A stretch of 34,317 bases of DNA from Halorubrum sp. (GTDB lineage Archaea; Halobacteriota; Halobacteria; Halobacteriales; Haloferacaceae). Both the position numbers and the translations under genes were made by a program. The stretch is from positions 1-34,317 of the forward strand of contig PWGU01000206.1 of the NCBI GenBank assembly GCA_003554605.1. The letters run 5' to 3'. The notes beneath the pieces were generated by a model. It was given only the letters and a program-made list of their open reading frames with translations. It was not told the DNA's origin and did not search any database. Positions 12,990-34,317 of this stretch are shown in pieces (positions within the stretch are counted from its first letter, which is position 1; every line of letters starts with the position of its first letter).

Positions 12990-14381
12990 CTAATCGTCCG
13001 CGCGAGCGGACCGCTGCCCCTCCACGTCGGGCGTGGCCGCGAGCATCGGTGTTCCGTCGGCACGGGGTCCCAAACGCGGTCCGTGGGGTCCCTCATCGGG
13101 GTCGATCCGTCGCTGGATGCGGTAGTCCGTCGAGCGCTCCATCGGGACCCGGCCGATGGCGGTGATCATCTCGACGTAGTCGTCGAATGACCGATACTCC
13201 CCGTACTCGCCGCCGGCCCGGCTGGTTATCTCCTCCGAAAGGATCGTCCCCATGAAGTCGTCCGCGCCGCAGTTGAGCAGTTTCAGTCCGTGTGCATCGC
13301 CGGATTTGACCCACGACGCCTGGATGTGATCGACGTTGTCGAGGAAGAGGCGGGCGACGGCGACGACCAGTTCGTCCTCGTCGTGTGAGGGCCCCCCATC
13401 GACGATCCCGCGTCGATAAAGCGGCGTGTTCCGGTGGATAAACGAGAGCGGGACGAACTCGGTAATTCCGCCGGTACGGTCCTGGAGGTCGCGGATCACG
13501 CCCAGATGTTCGGCTCGATGGGCGACCGTCTCGACGTGCCCGTACATCATCGTCGAGGTGACATCGAGGCCGGCGGCGACCGCCCCCTCGATCGCGGCGA
13601 CCCAGTCGTCCGTCCGGATCTTCCCCGGACAGATCACGTCCCGAACCTCGTCGACGAGGATCTCGGCGGCCGTCCCGGGTGCGGAATCGAGCCCGGCGGC
13701 GGCGAGTTCGCGATAGACCCGTTCGTAGCTCCAGTCGGTTCCACGCCGGGCGTGATAGGCCTCTTCCGGCGTCATCGAGTGGAGATGGACGCCGCCGACG
13801 GACATCGCGCGCATCTGTTCGAGATAGGTCCCCGGATCGGTCACGTAGCGCTCGGGCGGCTTGTAGTTCACCTCGCGTGCGGGATCCTCGTGGGCGGCGA
13901 GGATCTCGTGGTGTTCGGCGTTCAACGCGAAGGCGGGATGGAGTCCGGAGACCGAACAGACCTCGTAGATGCCGAACTCGAGCGCTTCCTCGACGATCGC
14001 CCGCGACTCGGCGGGCGTTTTCGTGAACCCCGGATGGTCGACGTCGGCGTCGACCTCGAAGGCGTGTGCGCTGTCTTTGAAGTTACAGAAGAGACAGCCC
14101 GTGTTGCAGGCGGTCGTCACGTTGTTGTTGAGGTTGGCGACGAAGGTGACTCCCTCCCCCACGGTTTCGGCGCGGCGGCGGTCGGCGGCCTCCAAGACGG
14201 CCTCCTTTCGTTCGGGGTCGATCCCGTCGACGTCGGTGCCGGTCGCGAGCAGCTCCGTGGCGTCCGCGACGCTGAGCCGGTGGCCGTCACGCGCCTTCGC
14301 GAGCGCGTTCTCGAAGGACTGATCGGTGCCGGGCTCCTCGAAGCCGAACCCGTCCCGATCGGGATCACGCGCCGCGGTCAT
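12990..14381 (-). CDS. cofH: 7,8-didemethyl-8-hydroxy-5-deazariboflavin synthase subunit CofH (coenzyme F420 synthesis)
   Basis: 463 aa; radical SAM CNTGCLFCNF, GFTKTPAESRAIVEEALEFGIYEVCSVSGLHPAF, MMYGHVET, SWVKSGDAHGLKLLNCGADDFMGTILSEEITSRAGG. Confidence 0.95.
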   Translation of the reverse strand: MTAARDPDRDGFGFEEPGTDQSFENALAKARDGHRLSVADATELLATGTDVDGIDPERKEAVLEAADRRRAETVGEGVTFVANLNNNVTTACNTGCLFCNFKDSAHAFEVDADVDHPGFTKTPAESRAIVEEALEFGIYEVCSVSGLHPAFALNAEHHEILAAHEDPAREVNYKPPERYVTDPGTYLEQMRAMSVGGVHLHSMTPEEAYHARRGTDWSYERVYRELAAAGLDSAPGTAAEILVDEVRDVICPGKIRTDDWVAAIEGAVAAGLDVTSTMMYGHVETVAHRAEHLGVIRDLQDRTGGITEFVPLSFIHRNTPLYRRGIVDGGPSHDEDELVVAVARLFLDNVDHIQASWVKSGDAHGLKLLNCGADDFMGTILSEEITSRAGGEYGEYRSFDDYVEMITAIGRVPMERSTDYRIQRRIDPDEGPHGPRLGPRADGTPMLAATPDVEGQRSARADD

Positions 14382-27810: not shown

Positions 27811-30021
27811 ATGCCGAACCACCCCTCGCCCCGGCAGGCCGCACGCGATGGCGTCCCGACGACGTGTATGCGCTGTGCGGTCGGCTGTGGACTTCGCCAG
27901 CGGCCACCCGCCGACGGCGACGGGGTTGGTACCGTCAGCGGCGACCCCTCCCACGTCGTCAGCGCCGGGCTGGCCTGTGCGCGGGGGATAAAAGAAACCG
28001 CACGCCCCCGCGGCGAGCGACTCACGACCCCGCTCGTGCGACGGGACGGCGAGCTCGTCGAGACGACGTGGGAGGTCGCGCTCGACCACGCTGTTGCGGG
28101 GATCGGGTCGGCGATCGGTCTCGCCGACGGGACCTCTTCCCCAACCGACCCCGACGCGCTCGCGGTCCTCGGGAGCGGACAACAGACGAACGAGGCGGCC
28201 TACGCGCTCGGGAAGGTCGCCCGCGGCGGCGTCGGCACCCCGCGATACGACGCCAACACTACTCTCTGTATGGCAAGCGCGGTGCGCGCTTACTTCGACG
28301 CGTTCGGTAGCGACGCGCCCCCGCCGACCTACGACGACATCCCCGAGGCGGCGGTCCACCTGATCTGGGGGGCGAACCCCGCGGTCGCCCATCCGGTCCT
28401 CTTCCGGTGGATCGCCGACGCGGCGGCCGAGGCGGGCCGTGAGCTGATCGTCGTCGATCCGGTCGAGACGGCGACGGCGAGGCGGGCGGACCACCACATT
28501 CGGCCGGCCTTTGGCGGCGATCATGCGCTTGCACGCGCGATCCTCGCGCGACTCGTCGAGGACGACCGCGTCGATCGGGAATTCATCGACGCGTACACGA
28601 GCGGTTTCGAGGCGGTTCGTGAGTCGCTTTCGGACGCCGAGTCCGCCGCCGCGGCCGCCGGCGTCGACCTCGACACGGTCGACCGACTCGCGGCCGCCTT
28701 CGAGCGACGGACGCTCGTCTACTGGGGGATGGGCGTCAACCAAAGCGTGCGGGGGACGGCGACCGCCGGCGCGCTGATCGACTGCTGTCTCGCCACCGGG
28801 AACCTCGGCACGGGCTGTGGACCGTTCTCGATCACCGGGCAGGCGAACTCGATGGGCGCGCGCCTCTGTGCATCGACGGGGACGTGGCCCGGTCATCGAG
28901 AATTCACCGACCCGGACCACCGCCGTGCGGTCGCGTCGGCGTGGGACGTGCCCGTCTCACGGCTCCCGACCGACTCCGGTCCGGGACCGGTCGGGATCCT
29001 CGAGGAGCGACCGGCGGCGCTCTGGACGGTGGCGACGAACCCGGCGGCGGGCCTCCCGGCGGCCAGCGACGCCCGCGAGGTGCTCTCGGAGACGTTTCTC
29101 GTCGTGCAGGACGCCTTCCGAACGGAGACGGTCGAATTCGCGGACGTCGTCCTGCCGGCGGCGACGTGGGGGGAGACAGCGGGAACGACGACGAACATGG
29201 AGCGCCGCATCTCGCGCGTCCGTGCCGCGACGGACCCTCCGGGGGCGACACGAACCGACCTCGAGATCATCGTCGCCGTCGGCGAACGACTCGCGCCCGG
29301 GCTGTTCGCCGGGACCGGTGCCGATCCGGAGGCCGTCTTCGAGGAACTCACCGCCCTGACCGCGGGGACACCGGCGGATTGCTCGGGCATCACGTATTCG
29401 CGGCTGGAGGGGGGCGCGGTCCGCTGGCCAGCACCCGGCCCGAACGTGGAGGGTGGGTACCGTTATCTCGTCAGTAGCGGTGCTGTCGAGGGCGAGGATG
29501 GCGATGTCGAGGGCGATGCCGACGATGCCGACGCCGAGGGCGATGCCGACGCCGAGGGCGACGCCGCTCACACGTCCGATCGGTTCGTGTTCCCGACCCC
29601 GTCGGGTCGGGCCCACTTTTCGACCCACGCGGCGGCGACGCTCCCGGAGCCGACCGGCGACGGATACGACCTCCTGTTGACGACCGCCCGGGAGCCGGAC
29701 GGGTATAACACGGGCATCCGCTCGCGACCCGGCGACCCGGGTCCGGTAACCGCGCGGGTCGCGCCCGCGACCGTCGCCGACCGCCTGGGAACGACCACGG
29801 AGGACGTGGAGGGGATCGACGGTAACCCGGTCGAGATCGTCTCACGACGCGGCCGCGTGCGGGCCGTCATCGAGCCCGACCCCGCCGTCCCCGAGGGCGC
29901 GGTGTGGCTCCCCATCCACCACCCCGCGGCGAACGACCTGACGGTCGATGCGACCGACCCGTTCTCGGACGAACCGAACTACAAACAGTGTGCGGTTCGC
30001 CTCGAATGGCCGGATCGCTGA
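27811..30021 (+). CDS. nasA: Molybdopterin oxidoreductase, NasA-like assimilatory nitrate reductase
   Basis: 736 aa; N-terminal 4Fe-4S motif TCMRCAVGC...LACARG; putative Mo-ligand Cys in YDANTTLCMASAVRAYFDAFGSDAPPPTYDDIPEAAVHLIWGANPAVAHPV; C-terminal molydopterin dinucleotide-binding region NYKQCAVRLE. Confidence 0.85.
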   Translation: MPNHPSPRQAARDGVPTTCMRCAVGCGLRQRPPADGDGVGTVSGDPSHVVSAGLACARGIKETARPRGERLTTPLVRRDGELVETTWEVALDHAVAGIGSAIGLADGTSSPTDPDALAVLGSGQQTNEAAYALGKVARGGVGTPRYDANTTLCMASAVRAYFDAFGSDAPPPTYDDIPEAAVHLIWGANPAVAHPVLFRWIADAAAEAGRELIVVDPVETATARRADHHIRPAFGGDHALARAILARLVEDDRVDREFIDAYTSGFEAVRESLSDAESAAAAAGVDLDTVDRLAAAFERRTLVYWGMGVNQSVRGTATAGALIDCCLATGNLGTGCGPFSITGQANSMGARLCASTGTWPGHREFTDPDHRRAVASAWDVPVSRLPTDSGPGPVGILEERPAALWTVATNPAAGLPAASDAREVLSETFLVVQDAFRTETVEFADVVLPAATWGETAGTTTNMERRISRVRAATDPPGATRTDLEIIVAVGERLAPGLFAGTGADPEAVFEELTALTAGTPADCSGITYSRLEGGAVRWPAPGPNVEGGYRYLVSSGAVEGEDGDVEGDADDADAEGDADAEGDAAHTSDRFVFPTPSGRAHFSTHAAATLPEPTGDGYDLLLTTAREPDGYNTGIRSRPGDPGPVTARVAPATVADRLGTTTEDVEGIDGNPVEIVSRRGRVRAVIEPDPAVPEGAVWLPIHHPAANDLTVDATDPFSDEPNYKQCAVRLEWPDR
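29488..29565 (+). repeat. Intragenic acidic low-complexity repeat (EGEDGDVEGDADDADAEGDADAEGDA)
   Basis: Reiterated gccgacgccgagggcgat units within the NasA-like ORF. Confidence 0.8.
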
Positions 30022-30638: not shown

Positions 30639-31874
30639 TCACCAGAGCATCAGCGGCCCGATGAGCACGCCCATCAGATGGACGCGCCGCGCGCTGAATC
30701 GAGGTGGAACGAGACCGAGAAGCGCGGAGACGACGAAGACGCCGACGCCGAAGGCCCCCGCGAAGGCGAACGAGAGCCCGACGAGGAGCAGCAGCACCGT
30801 CACGGAGAGTCGCGTGTAGTCCGCGTTGCCGACGATCCGGAGGTACGCGTCGCCGAGCAGCAACACGAGCATGAACCCGCACAGGGCCGCGATGGCGACC
30901 GCGACCAGCAGGACCGGCATCGCGAGCGGCACCTCCGCGCGCTCCACCGCGACGGTCACCCCCGTTCTGGGCGTCCCGAGCGCCGCGAGCGCGAACAACG
31001 CGAAGACGGTGTTCGCTGTGTTGGCCCCGCTCGTCGCGACGACGAACCCCCGGTCGGCCTCCCGACGCGGCACGGCCGGAAGCGCCGCGATGGCGGCGAT
31101 CGCCGCCGAGACGCCGGGGATGTAGCCGACTATCGCGCCCGCGATCGACCCGGCTCCCGCGGTCACCCCGAGGTCGCGTTTCCCCATCGTGAGCCGGGCG
31201 TCGGACTGCGGCGGGACGCCGTCGCCGCCGATCGCGTCGATCAGCACGGGTGCGCCGAACAGGCCGGTGAAAAGCGGAGCGAGGATCCCCCCGGCATCGA
31301 GCGGCGCGTCCGGATCGGTATCGAGCGTCGCCATCCCGAGGGCGGCGCTCGCGAGGAAGGCGAGAACGCCCACGATCGCTCCCTTTCGGGATGACTCCGT
31401 GACGACGAGGAAGAGGACGACGCCCGCGAGCAGCCAGGGGAGGTGTGCCCTGACGGTCGGATACCAGCGGACCATCGCCCACGTGATCGGGATCGCGAGC
31501 GGGACGGCGAGCGCGACCGCGATCCCCGACCCGACCGCCGAAAGCCGGAGCGCCTCGCGGCCGCGACCGGCGACGACCAGCCGATGGCCGGGAAGCGCCG
31601 CCACCGCGGTCGCCGCGTCGGGCACGCCGAGCGCGAGCGCCGGCACGATGTCGAGAAACGAGTGGACCACCCCGGCCGCGAGGATCGCGATCCCGACGAG
31701 CAGCGGGTCGGCCGGGATCGACGGGGCAACCCCCGCGAGCAACAGCGCGAAGTTGTTCGCGTGGAGGCCGGGGACCAGCCCGCTTACGGTTCCGAGCGCG
31801 GCTCCGGCGGCGAGGAAGGCGAACGCCCGTACGGTGAAGCCCGGATCGATAACGGGGTGGACCAGCGCGTCCAT
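30639..31874 (-). CDS. TctA-like (DUF112) tripartite tricarboxylate transporter permease homologue
   Basis: AALGTVSGLVPGLHANNFALLLAG, HSFLDIVPALALGVPDAATAVAALPGHRLV, GYIPGVSAAIAAIAALPAVPRREADRGFVVATSGANTANTVFALFALAA; polytopic. Confidence 0.88.
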   Translation of the reverse strand: MDALVHPVIDPGFTVRAFAFLAAGAALGTVSGLVPGLHANNFALLLAGVAPSIPADPLLVGIAILAAGVVHSFLDIVPALALGVPDAATAVAALPGHRLVVAGRGREALRLSAVGSGIAVALAVPLAIPITWAMVRWYPTVRAHLPWLLAGVVLFLVVTESSRKGAIVGVLAFLASAALGMATLDTDPDAPLDAGGILAPLFTGLFGAPVLIDAIGGDGVPPQSDARLTMGKRDLGVTAGAGSIAGAIVGYIPGVSAAIAAIAALPAVPRREADRGFVVATSGANTANTVFALFALAALGTPRTGVTVAVERAEVPLAMPVLLVAVAIAALCGFMLVLLLGDAYLRIVGNADYTRLSVTVLLLLVGLSFAFAGAFGVGVFVVSALLGLVPPRFSARRVHLMGVLIGPLMLW

Positions 31875-31941: not shown

Positions 31942-32139
31942 TTACGCCGCCTGGGCCGCCTGCGACGACTTCTTCCGGGTGATGTAGCCGGCGATGCGGT
32001 TCCGCACGCCCTTCGATTCGACGGTGGTGAGCGCCGTGACGCTCTCCTTGTTCGTCTCGAAGTCCGTGTTGAACGAGTCGGGATAGCGCTCCAAGAGCAC
32101 GTTCGCGAGCTGTTTGATGTACTTGGGCTTGATGGCCAT
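31942..32139 (-). CDS. rps17e: 30S ribosomal protein S17e
   Basis: [65 protein letters not shown]. Confidence 0.96.
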
Positions 32140-32225: not shown

Positions 32226-32900
32226 CTACCGTCGCGCCCGCCAGTCGGTCACCTCGTCGATCCGGGCGAAGGCCTCTCGTTCGCGGGGGCCCCCGCAGCG
32301 GTCGACGACGTCCGCGAAGTACGCGAGGCGTTCGAGGAGGACGTCGGTCGAATACGTCGGGACGTCGAGCCGCGAGGCCGCCACGGTCGCGTCTATCACC
32401 GCGCCGAACCCGCGGTTGATCGTCCGCACGCCGGTTCGCTCGATGGCGGTGTCGACCGGCTCCAGTGCCCACGTTCGGATCGTCGTGTCGCCTTCCGTTC
32501 GCGTTTCCAGTTCCTCGACGCGCACCTCGACCCACGCGTCGGCCGACGGGAGCACTGGCTCGTCGACCTCGTGGATCGTCAACGCCGCCTCGACGAACGT
32601 CCGCGGGTCGGCGACGAACTGGACGACGCCGCCGCCGCGCTCCGTGAAGTTTCGCCAGGTCCGGGTTCGCCCGTAGGTTCGGGCGGTGACTGGCGGCTCC
32701 GTTTCCCCGTCGGCTCCGTTCGGCGGGCCGGCTCCGTTTGCCGCGTCGGTTCCCTTCGGCGCGTGGATCCCGAGTGCGGCGGCGTTCCACCGGCCGTTCG
32801 GTCCCAGCGTCGTCACGACTGACTCCGTCACACCCGACAGGTCGACGGGCCAGCGGGCGGGTGATCCGGATGTTCGGTCCGTTCCGTCACCCCCGCTCAT
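32226..32900 (-). CDS. DUF447 domain-containing protein
   Basis: VDLSGVTESVVTTLGPNGRWNAAALGIHAP...ARTYGRTRTWRNFTERGGGVVQFVADPRTFVEAALTIHE...GFGAVIDATVAASRLDVP; ATGA overlap with the upstream CDS. Confidence 0.87.
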   Translation of the reverse strand: MSGGDGTDRTSGSPARWPVDLSGVTESVVTTLGPNGRWNAAALGIHAPKGTDAANGAGPPNGADGETEPPVTARTYGRTRTWRNFTERGGGVVQFVADPRTFVEAALTIHEVDEPVLPSADAWVEVRVEELETRTEGDTTIRTWALEPVDTAIERTGVRTINRGFGAVIDATVAASRLDVPTYSTDVLLERLAYFADVVDRCGGPREREAFARIDEVTDWRARR

Positions 32901-33859
32901 GCCCGCACCTCCAACCCGCGGCGAAGCGCGACGAAGAGTCCCGCACAGACGAGATCCGCGGTCGTCCCGGGGTTGACCCCCTCGTCGACGAACGCCTCGG
33001 CGAGCGTCGTCGCCGCCGCGAGGTCGACGTGATCGGCCAGTGGGTCGGGAAGCTCGGCCACCTCCTCGCCCGCGGGCGCATCGACCCCCTCGATCACGGC
33101 CGTCACGCGCCGGCTGGTCTCCCGTGCCACCTCGGCGTCGTGGTTCGTGGCTACGAGCGTGTCCGGTTCGGCGGCAAGCTGGTGGATAAACGCCCGTGCC
33201 GCCCGATCCGTTACCGGCCCCTCGTCCGCGAGGATCCGCTCCGCGATCCGGAAGGTCCGCGGGAAGCCCTCCACCCACTCTTGGGCGTTGCGGTCGGGGA
33301 TGCCGTCGACCTCCGCCCCGAGTTCCATCACCCCCCGAAGGGTCATGCCGCGCGCTCGGAGCGTGGGGGCGGCGTCGCCCCCGCGTCGAACGTCGAGCGC
33401 GTCGGCCTCCGCCGGTGGGTCGTCGACGGCGACGTCGACGTGCTCGAGGGCGGTGTAAAAGGCGACCGCGTCGTCGACGGTCGTCCGTCGCGCCACCCGA
33501 TCGGCCGCTTCCGGGGTGACGGTCCCGGCCGATACGACGGCGTCGTCGACGGTCGCGGCAAGCAGTGGGATGAGCAACAACAGGCAGCCGAACTGGGTGT
33601 TCGTTCCCGCACGGTCGGCCATCCCGCGGACCGCCCGTTCGAAGGCGGGACCGAATGGATCCCCGCGAGCGGCCGATTCGAGCCCGGCCCGTGCGCCGAC
33701 CGCCCCGCCGAGGAAGGATTCGAATCGGAGGTCGGCGAGGTCGCGCTCGCGATCGACGTTCCCCGGCTTCGGGGTCCCCGAGACCTCCAGCAGGAGCGCG
33801 AGCGTCGCGTCGTCCACGGGGTCGCGGCCGTCGTGGTCGCTGTTCAACCGCCCCGTCAT
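32897..33859 (-). CDS. CitG-like triphosphoribosyl-dephospho-CoA synthase family protein
   Basis: LLLEVSGTPKPGNVDRERDLADLRFESFLGGAVGARAGLESAA...GTNTQFGCLLLLIPLL...DRNAQEWVEGFPRTFRIAERI...DEGVNPGTTADLVCAGLFVALRRG. Confidence 0.88.
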   Translation of the reverse strand: MTGRLNSDHDGRDPVDDATLALLLEVSGTPKPGNVDRERDLADLRFESFLGGAVGARAGLESAARGDPFGPAFERAVRGMADRAGTNTQFGCLLLLIPLLAATVDDAVVSAGTVTPEAADRVARRTTVDDAVAFYTALEHVDVAVDDPPAEADALDVRRGGDAAPTLRARGMTLRGVMELGAEVDGIPDRNAQEWVEGFPRTFRIAERILADEGPVTDRAARAFIHQLAAEPDTLVATNHDAEVARETSRRVTAVIEGVDAPAGEEVAELPDPLADHVDLAAATTLAEAFVDEGVNPGTTADLVCAGLFVALRRGLEVRA

Positions 33860-34317
33860 CGCGTTCCCCTCGGCGCGTCGGCCTCGCCCGGGAGCCGGTC
33901 AGTCCGCCAGTCGGCGACGGCGTCGGCGACCGCACGGATCGCCTCCGGGTCGGCCGGGCGGAACGACCGCCCGATCCCCGCCGGACGGGTCGGGCGGGCG
34001 ATACTCACCGCGTCGGCCCCGTAGGCCGCGTACTCGGCGACGGTTCGGCGGTCACGGACCCCGTTGTTGGCGACGAGGGCGAGCCCGAGGTCCTCGCCGC
34101 CGATCGCCTTCCGCAACTCGGCGATGGCGGGCTCGGAGTCCATCGCGTCGACGTGGATCCAGTCGCCCCCGGCCCGCGCTATCGTCCGCGCGACGGCGAC
34201 GAGGTCGACGCCGGGCACCTCCGCGCGAACCTTGACGCTCGTCGTCGCGCCCGTTTCGGCGGCCGCCTTGACGTGTTCGTGAAGCCGTTCGTCGTCCCGG
34301 AGGAGGGACTCGCCGCA
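33856..34317 (-). CDS. Dus/NifR3-like TIM-barrel protein, 5' end truncated by window edge
   Basis: CGESLLRDDERLHEHVKAAAETGATTSVKVRAEVPGVDLVAVARTIARAGGDWIHVDAMDSEPAIAELRKAIGGEDLGLALVANNGVRDRRTVAEYAAYGADAVSIARPTR. Confidence 0.75.
   Translation of the reverse strand, partial: CGESLLRDDERLHEHVKAAAETGATTSVKVRAEVPGVDLVAVARTIARAGGDWIHVDAMDSEPAIAELRKAIGGEDLGLALVANNGVRDRRTVAEYAAYGADAVSIARPTRPAGIGRSFRPADPEAIRAVADAVADWRTDRLPGEADAPRGTR

Follow-up and report, generated by a model that had tools for sequence, protein, structure and literature searches.

In haloarchaea, the genes encoding a CitG-like protein and a DUF447 protein were a conserved pair of one operon and belonged to a co-inherited set together with RFAP synthase, Mer and the split methionine synthase MetE. 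It was somewhat probable, a little beyond an even chance, that haloarchaea produce a methyl carrier that derives from RFAP, resembles H4MPT and serves methionine synthesis, and that the CitG-like and DUF447 proteins would perform two steps of its formation. What was observed were the genes present, their synteny and their joint loss, whereas the product, each reaction and the role in methionine synthesis were inferred.

The analysed window (34,317 nucleotides) was an entire contig of a 79.6%-complete MAG of Halorubrum sp. and contained the following features:

33856-34317, minus strand: C-terminal 153 codons of a Dus-like TIM barrel of the MJ0144 family, predicted to bind FMN (TIGR00736, 57 bits, profile positions 112-221)
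33856-33859, minus strand: ATGA stop/start overlap between the Dus-like and the CitG-like genes, seen in the sequence
32897-33859, minus strand: CitG-like enzyme of 320 aa (PF01874, 188 bits), putative ribosyl-phosphate transferase of an H4MPT-like pathway
32897-32900, minus strand: ATGA stop/start overlap between the CitG-like and the DUF447 genes, seen in the sequence
32226-32900, minus strand: DUF447 protein of 224 aa (PF04289 and PF20766), predicted FMN-binding split barrel and putative flavin-dependent reductase of the same pathway as CitG
31942-32139, minus strand: 30S ribosomal protein S17e, identified from the sequence, outside the cofactor set
12990-14381, minus strand: CofH, a subunit of FO synthase in F420 biosynthesis (CofH equivalog NF005609, 529 bits, cut-off 426)

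The original prediction described three minus-strand genes with ATGA junctions, and the frames and both overlaps were found exactly at the positions it gave. Its family assignments were also upheld by profile searches: the CitG-like protein (PF01874 cut-off 27 bits) and both DUF447 domains (DUF447_N, 73.7 bits with a cut-off of 24; DUF447_C, 64.4 bits with a cut-off of 24.8) scored over the Pfam cut-offs, and the partial frame matched TIGR00736. The latter frame (34317-33856, 153 aa) was open at the contig end, and the first gene was thus truncated. Since the window was the whole contig, the operon could not be extended in its own genome, and its upstream part was read from relatives. The S17e gene was the next one 3' of DUF447, after a gap of 86 bp. 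CofH belonged to a related cofactor but occupied a separate locus about 18 kb from the operon on the same contig; its frame apparently had an insertion relative to the profile, as TIGR03551 matched it in two stretches. The window also encoded a molybdopterin oxidoreductase (27811-30021, 736 aa), a TctA-family transporter (30639-31874) and, between them, elongation factor 1-beta, all of which were ordinary by Pfam.

We fetched 80 loci from nearly all of the 58 haloarchaeal genera and called their genes by cross-conservation; together with the window, this gave 81 loci. The full operon order in the relatives was cofD, the MJ0144-family Dus-like barrel, CitG and DUF447. Thus, according to the relatives, the gene missing 5' of the truncated Dus-like frame was cofD (2-phospho-L-lactate transferase, F420 biosynthesis), for which no match was found in the 79.6%-complete MAG itself. 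CitG and DUF447 were on the same strand in 81 of 81 loci, less than 100 bp apart in 79, and joined by an in-frame NTGA stop/start overlap in 73. The Dus-like gene was located less than 100 bp 5' of CitG in 61 of 81 loci, with an in-frame NTGA overlap in 52 of the 69 same-strand loci. In the annotated genome of Natrinema thermotolerans, the order was 2-phospho-L-lactate transferase, a "dihydropyrimidine dehydrogenase", three inserted genes, CitG, DUF447 and ribosomal S17e. The operon was real and conserved, and the association of CitG and DUF447 was beyond chance.

The loss pattern was analysed in a sample of 146 haloarchaeal genomes. DUF447 was absent from three of them, namely G001 and G007, which share a genus, and G018, from a different genus within the same family; all three also lacked CitG. 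RFAP synthase (TIGR00144; beta-RFAP synthase, the first committed step of H4MPT synthesis) was over the cut-off in 140 of the 146 haloarchaea and in the window's own genome (contig C92), and it was absent from the same three genomes and from G122. The overlap of the DUF447 and RFAP synthase losses had a hypergeometric P of 8e-6 with genomes treated as independent, while there were only about two loss events. Moreover, the close Mer ortholog was absent from exactly these three genomes and scored 284-332 bits in all other haloarchaea tested; G018 had only a 133-bit paralog. Split MetE was encoded by two adjacent genes in the other haloarchaea examined. In G001 and G007 we found only a divergent catalytic MetE without the partner subunit (46-47% identity to the Halobellus subunit, compared to 71-73% for most others), and G018 had no PF01717 match. 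Apparently, the methionine synthase of G001 (locus L329) and G007 (L330) was a core enzyme that lacked the partner subunit, and G018 may be a methionine auxotroph. CitG and DUF447 were thus co-inherited with RFAP synthase with the single exception of G122, a 70-contig assembly where CitG, DUF447, cofD and Mer were present and the RFAP synthase match was absent, through either a real loss or an assembly gap.

All three genomes without CitG and DUF447 kept cofD, so the pair was not retained wherever cofD was. Since CitG and DUF447 were lost with RFAP synthase, Mer and the second MetE subunit while cofD stayed, the pair belonged with that set rather than with F420. Judging by the loss pattern, the product would be an RFAP-derived methyl carrier for Mer and split MetE. 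The predicted link of the pair to H4MPT-type cofactor chemistry gained support from this joint loss. However, the accompanying premise that haloarchaea lack H4MPT-type cofactors, which was also the published assumption (PMC8305020), was at odds with it, and the co-loss pattern likewise contradicted the published folate-only view for Mer and split MetE (PMC8305020).

The position of cofD suggested another reading, in which the operon would serve F420 and the Dus-like and/or DUF447 flavoproteins would be the missing archaeal dehydro-F420-0 reductase ("CofX"), whose identity was an open question (PMC6450877). Namely, cofD was located less than 100 bp 5' of the Dus-like gene in 67 of 80 haloarchaeal loci (also counted per 81), often overlapping it, and the two genes stayed together in G001, G007 and G018. 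On the other hand, cofD outlived the loss of CitG and DUF447, genome G002 had cofD but no Dus-like match, the Dus-like gene was missing from many genomes of the phylum, and Sulfolobus acidocaldarius had CitG and DUF447 but no CofD match. Thus, an F420-only role of the entire operon was ruled out for CitG and DUF447, and we consider the F420 reading as a whole improbable. With a pterin carrier, cofD may head the operon because Mer needs two cofactors, F420 and the pterin, whose genes would be interleaved.

The pair was also widespread outside haloarchaea. In a sample of 90 genomes from the phylum, CitG was found in 87 and DUF447 in 85, mostly with DUF447 on the same strand 3' of CitG, and the two genes were side by side in most methanogens. 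Among bacteria, annotated H4MPT/methanofuran clusters of Phyllobacterium, Azoarcus and Azospirillum contained both CitG and DUF447, and that of Thiodictyon contained CitG. The CitG gene adjoined mch in Azospirillum and was inside a cluster of mch, RFAP synthase and methylene-H4MPT dehydrogenase in Phyllobacterium, Azoarcus and Thiodictyon. Bacterial DUF447 adjoined DUF6513, which in Azoarcus was a TIGR00284 relative; in Azoarcus and Azospirillum, DUF447 was also next to the methanofuran enzyme MfnB. The predicted recurrence of both families in H4MPT/methanofuran clusters was thus seen in the bacterial clusters and in the adjacency of the genes in most genomes of the phylum. Haloarchaea shared CitG (PF01874), DUF447, RFAP synthase and mch families with the H4MPT/methanofuran clusters of methylotrophs and methanogens. 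In contrast to those clusters, they had no TIGR00284/DUF6513 gene, and their genes were dispersed, with links to F420 genes and to split MetE. Additionally, the RFAP synthase and DUF447 profiles matched the same four of 14 named control genomes, including S. acidocaldarius. A genome scan with an alignment of 13 DUF447 sequences yielded no conserved stretch, and all hits of a rescan were to methanogens or related organisms. Our literature search found no papers naming COG2457, or the product name of CitG together with methanopterin.

The proteins of this set appeared intact. The window CitG-like protein retained 19 of 22 residues conserved in methanogens and bacteria with H4MPT clusters (including KPGN, N87, D130, D189, D233, NPG and AD), and the DUF447 protein retained 11 of 15 conserved residues. 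The RFAP synthase from the same genome kept 55 of 76 bacterial invariants, including the conserved motif blocks RLHxGF, HxGxGSGTQ, RGxRSGxG and GQSSWGP. Judging by these residues, the CitG-DUF447 pair did not look like a decaying remnant. Still, the genes could come from a methanogen-like ancestor and now perform unrelated jobs, with the co-loss reflecting genome reduction, as the three genomes concerned were small (2.1-2.4 Mb) and belonged to a single family. We regard this as very improbable because DUF447 was kept in 143 of 146 genomes with conserved residues, the lost set was functionally coherent, and G094, a 2.2 Mb genome of the same family, kept DUF447, CitG, RFAP synthase and Mer. It should be noted that the co-loss argument depended on about two independent loss events within a single family, and that a loss of methionine synthesis could take unrelated genes with it. 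The original interpretation was thus partly supported: the idea of an undescribed cofactor was strengthened by the co-loss, the relic reading was not favoured, since the pair was nearly universal and its family residues were conserved, and the membership of the Dus-like gene did not hold.

The AlphaFold model of DUF447 (pLDDT 86.8) had its best PDB matches in the FMN-bound DUF447 structures 2IML and 2NR4. The predicted fold of DUF447 was an FMN split barrel. The structures 2IML, 2NR4, 2PTF (FMN-bound) and 3B5M were of the same family and predicted fold as the window protein, and these proteins were themselves uncharacterised. To our knowledge, DUF447 has no assigned reaction despite its solved FMN-bound structures. 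The CitG-like protein shared its Pfam family with CitG/MdcB triphosphoribosyl-dephospho-CoA synthase, and its closest solved structure by sequence was 3H9P. However, it scored far below the CitG equivalogs (TIGR03125, 17.1 bits with a cut-off of 272.3; NF002315, 16.4 bits with a cut-off of 280), which ruled out a role as the citrate/malonate lyase prosthetic-group enzyme.

In the CitG reaction, a hydroxyl receives the ribosyl-triphosphate moiety of ATP, adenine is released and an alpha-glycosidic bond is formed. The ribitol of H4MPT bears a ribose-5-phosphate in alpha linkage, and a reduction of the RFAP ribose is a further requirement of H4MPT biosynthesis. On this basis, we assigned the ribosyl transfer to the CitG-like protein by analogy, which is a tentative assignment, and the flavin reduction to DUF447, where the assignment is still more tentative. 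In the proposed pathway, RFAP synthase would produce ribofuranosyl-aminobenzene phosphate, and a pterin synthase would join it to a pterin; as the H4MPT-specific enzyme was missing, this synthase is probably FolP. DUF447 with FMN may then carry out a reduction, either opening the ribose ring or reducing the pterin, and the CitG-like protein may attach a ribose-5-phosphate taken from ATP or another nucleotide, in the way that CitG acts on dephospho-CoA. The F420-dependent reductase Mer would make the methyl group on this pterin, split MetE would use it for methionine, and canonical folate would probably stay for other C1 reactions. The broader claim, that a second methanopterin-type C1 carrier exists alongside folate for the Mer-split MetE branch and that the CitG-like and DUF447 proteins fill two unassigned steps of H4MPT biosynthesis in general, has in our view just under an even chance. 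Haloferax volcanii (mer, HVO_1937) could be a genetically tractable, non-methanogenic host for finding the functions of these two proteins, which are common to methanogens and methylotrophs.

Several observations did not fit a methanogen-type pathway. The H4MPT-specific dihydropteroate-synthase-like enzyme (TIGR00284) was missing from 16 of 16 haloarchaea tested, where the profile gave no more than weak FolP-like matches. Therefore, the pathway was not the complete methanogen version: RFAP would have to be a substrate of FolP, or else a modified folate would be made. The one haloarchaeal RFAP synthase tested was above the subfamily cut-off but below the equivalog NF040726 (175 of 328 bits). 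The retention of Mch in G001, G007 and G018, and the lack of RFAP synthase in G122 with the rest kept, were further points against an H4MPT-like carrier. Folates were reportedly found in haloarchaea by White in 1988, a work cited in PMC8305020. According to the published view, haloarchaea had no methanopterin-specific enzymes, and their homologs of Mer and Mch came to use folate instead (PMC8305020). In the same work, Pfeiffer and Dyall-Smith considered HVO_2628, the RFAP synthase homolog of H. volcanii, unlikely to be an RFAP synthase, and neither triphosphoribosyl (CitG) proteins nor DUF447 were named in the main text (PMC8305020). The RFAP synthase homolog, CitG and DUF447 might, instead of making a methanopterin, modify tetrahydrofolate or yield a related ribosylated carrier of C1 units that Mer and split MetE need. 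This possibility was consistent with the FolP-like matches left in the absence of the H4MPT-specific enzyme and with folate being the pterin reported from haloarchaea (PMC8305020); the co-loss pattern fitted it equally well. We nevertheless consider it unlikely, since the RFAP synthase family was retained, conserved motif blocks included, and the methanopterin arylamine is the product of its characterised members.

The Dus-like barrel was a separate matter, linked to cofD. The truncated frame was the C-terminal half of the MJ0144 "RNA dihydrouridine synthase-like" family, and a full-length haloarchaeal relative (L141) matched TIGR00736 with 130 bits. This relative had no match to the Dus equivalog TIGR00737 and only a weak and partial one to PF01207 (25 bits). 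Haloarchaeal members had a median length of 256 aa, consisted of the barrel only, and carried the motif E[IVL]NAHCR in 67 of 67 cases. Thus, a canonical tRNA dihydrouridine synthase was ruled out by the profile scores and by the absence of the C-terminal tRNA-binding domain from the full-length relatives. The Dus-like gene was also rejected as a core member of the CitG-DUF447 set, contrary to the predicted triplet: it was still in tandem with cofD in G001, G007 and G018, and it had no match in G002, where cofD, CitG, DUF447, RFAP synthase and Mer were present. It was likewise absent or distant in other genomes of the phylum sample. Its tight coupling to cofD (L032-L111) made it a weak candidate for the missing archaeal dehydro-F420-0 reductase. 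In methanogens, an MJ0144/methanogenesis marker 9 gene (TIGR00736 and TIGR03277) with the same barrel and motif was often directly 5' of CitG-DUF447, which linked marker 9 to the same gene set. Unlike the haloarchaeal protein, the methanogen barrel was fused to the Cys-rich marker 9 domain (TIGR03277, 157.8 bits in L128). This fusion was noted in methanogens and relatives (L128, L129, L131-L136, L138 and L139) and was profile-checked in L128 only.

The RFAP synthase neighbourhoods in haloarchaea showed no pathway partner among the conserved neighbours. On main chromosomes, cofE adjoined mer in 10 of 13 loci. Split MetE was the sole methionine synthase in Halobacteria except Haloquadratum walsbyi, and its predicted methyl donor was methyl-folate or another methyl-pterin (Price et al., PMC7857596). 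On a Halobellus limi plasmid (NZ_CP031312.1; L203, 5167-10803), the genes for mer, DUF447, RFAP synthase and both MetE subunits followed one another beside npdG (F420:NADP), an independent cluster in agreement with the co-loss set. This plasmid run was possibly a mobile cassette of the methyl branch.
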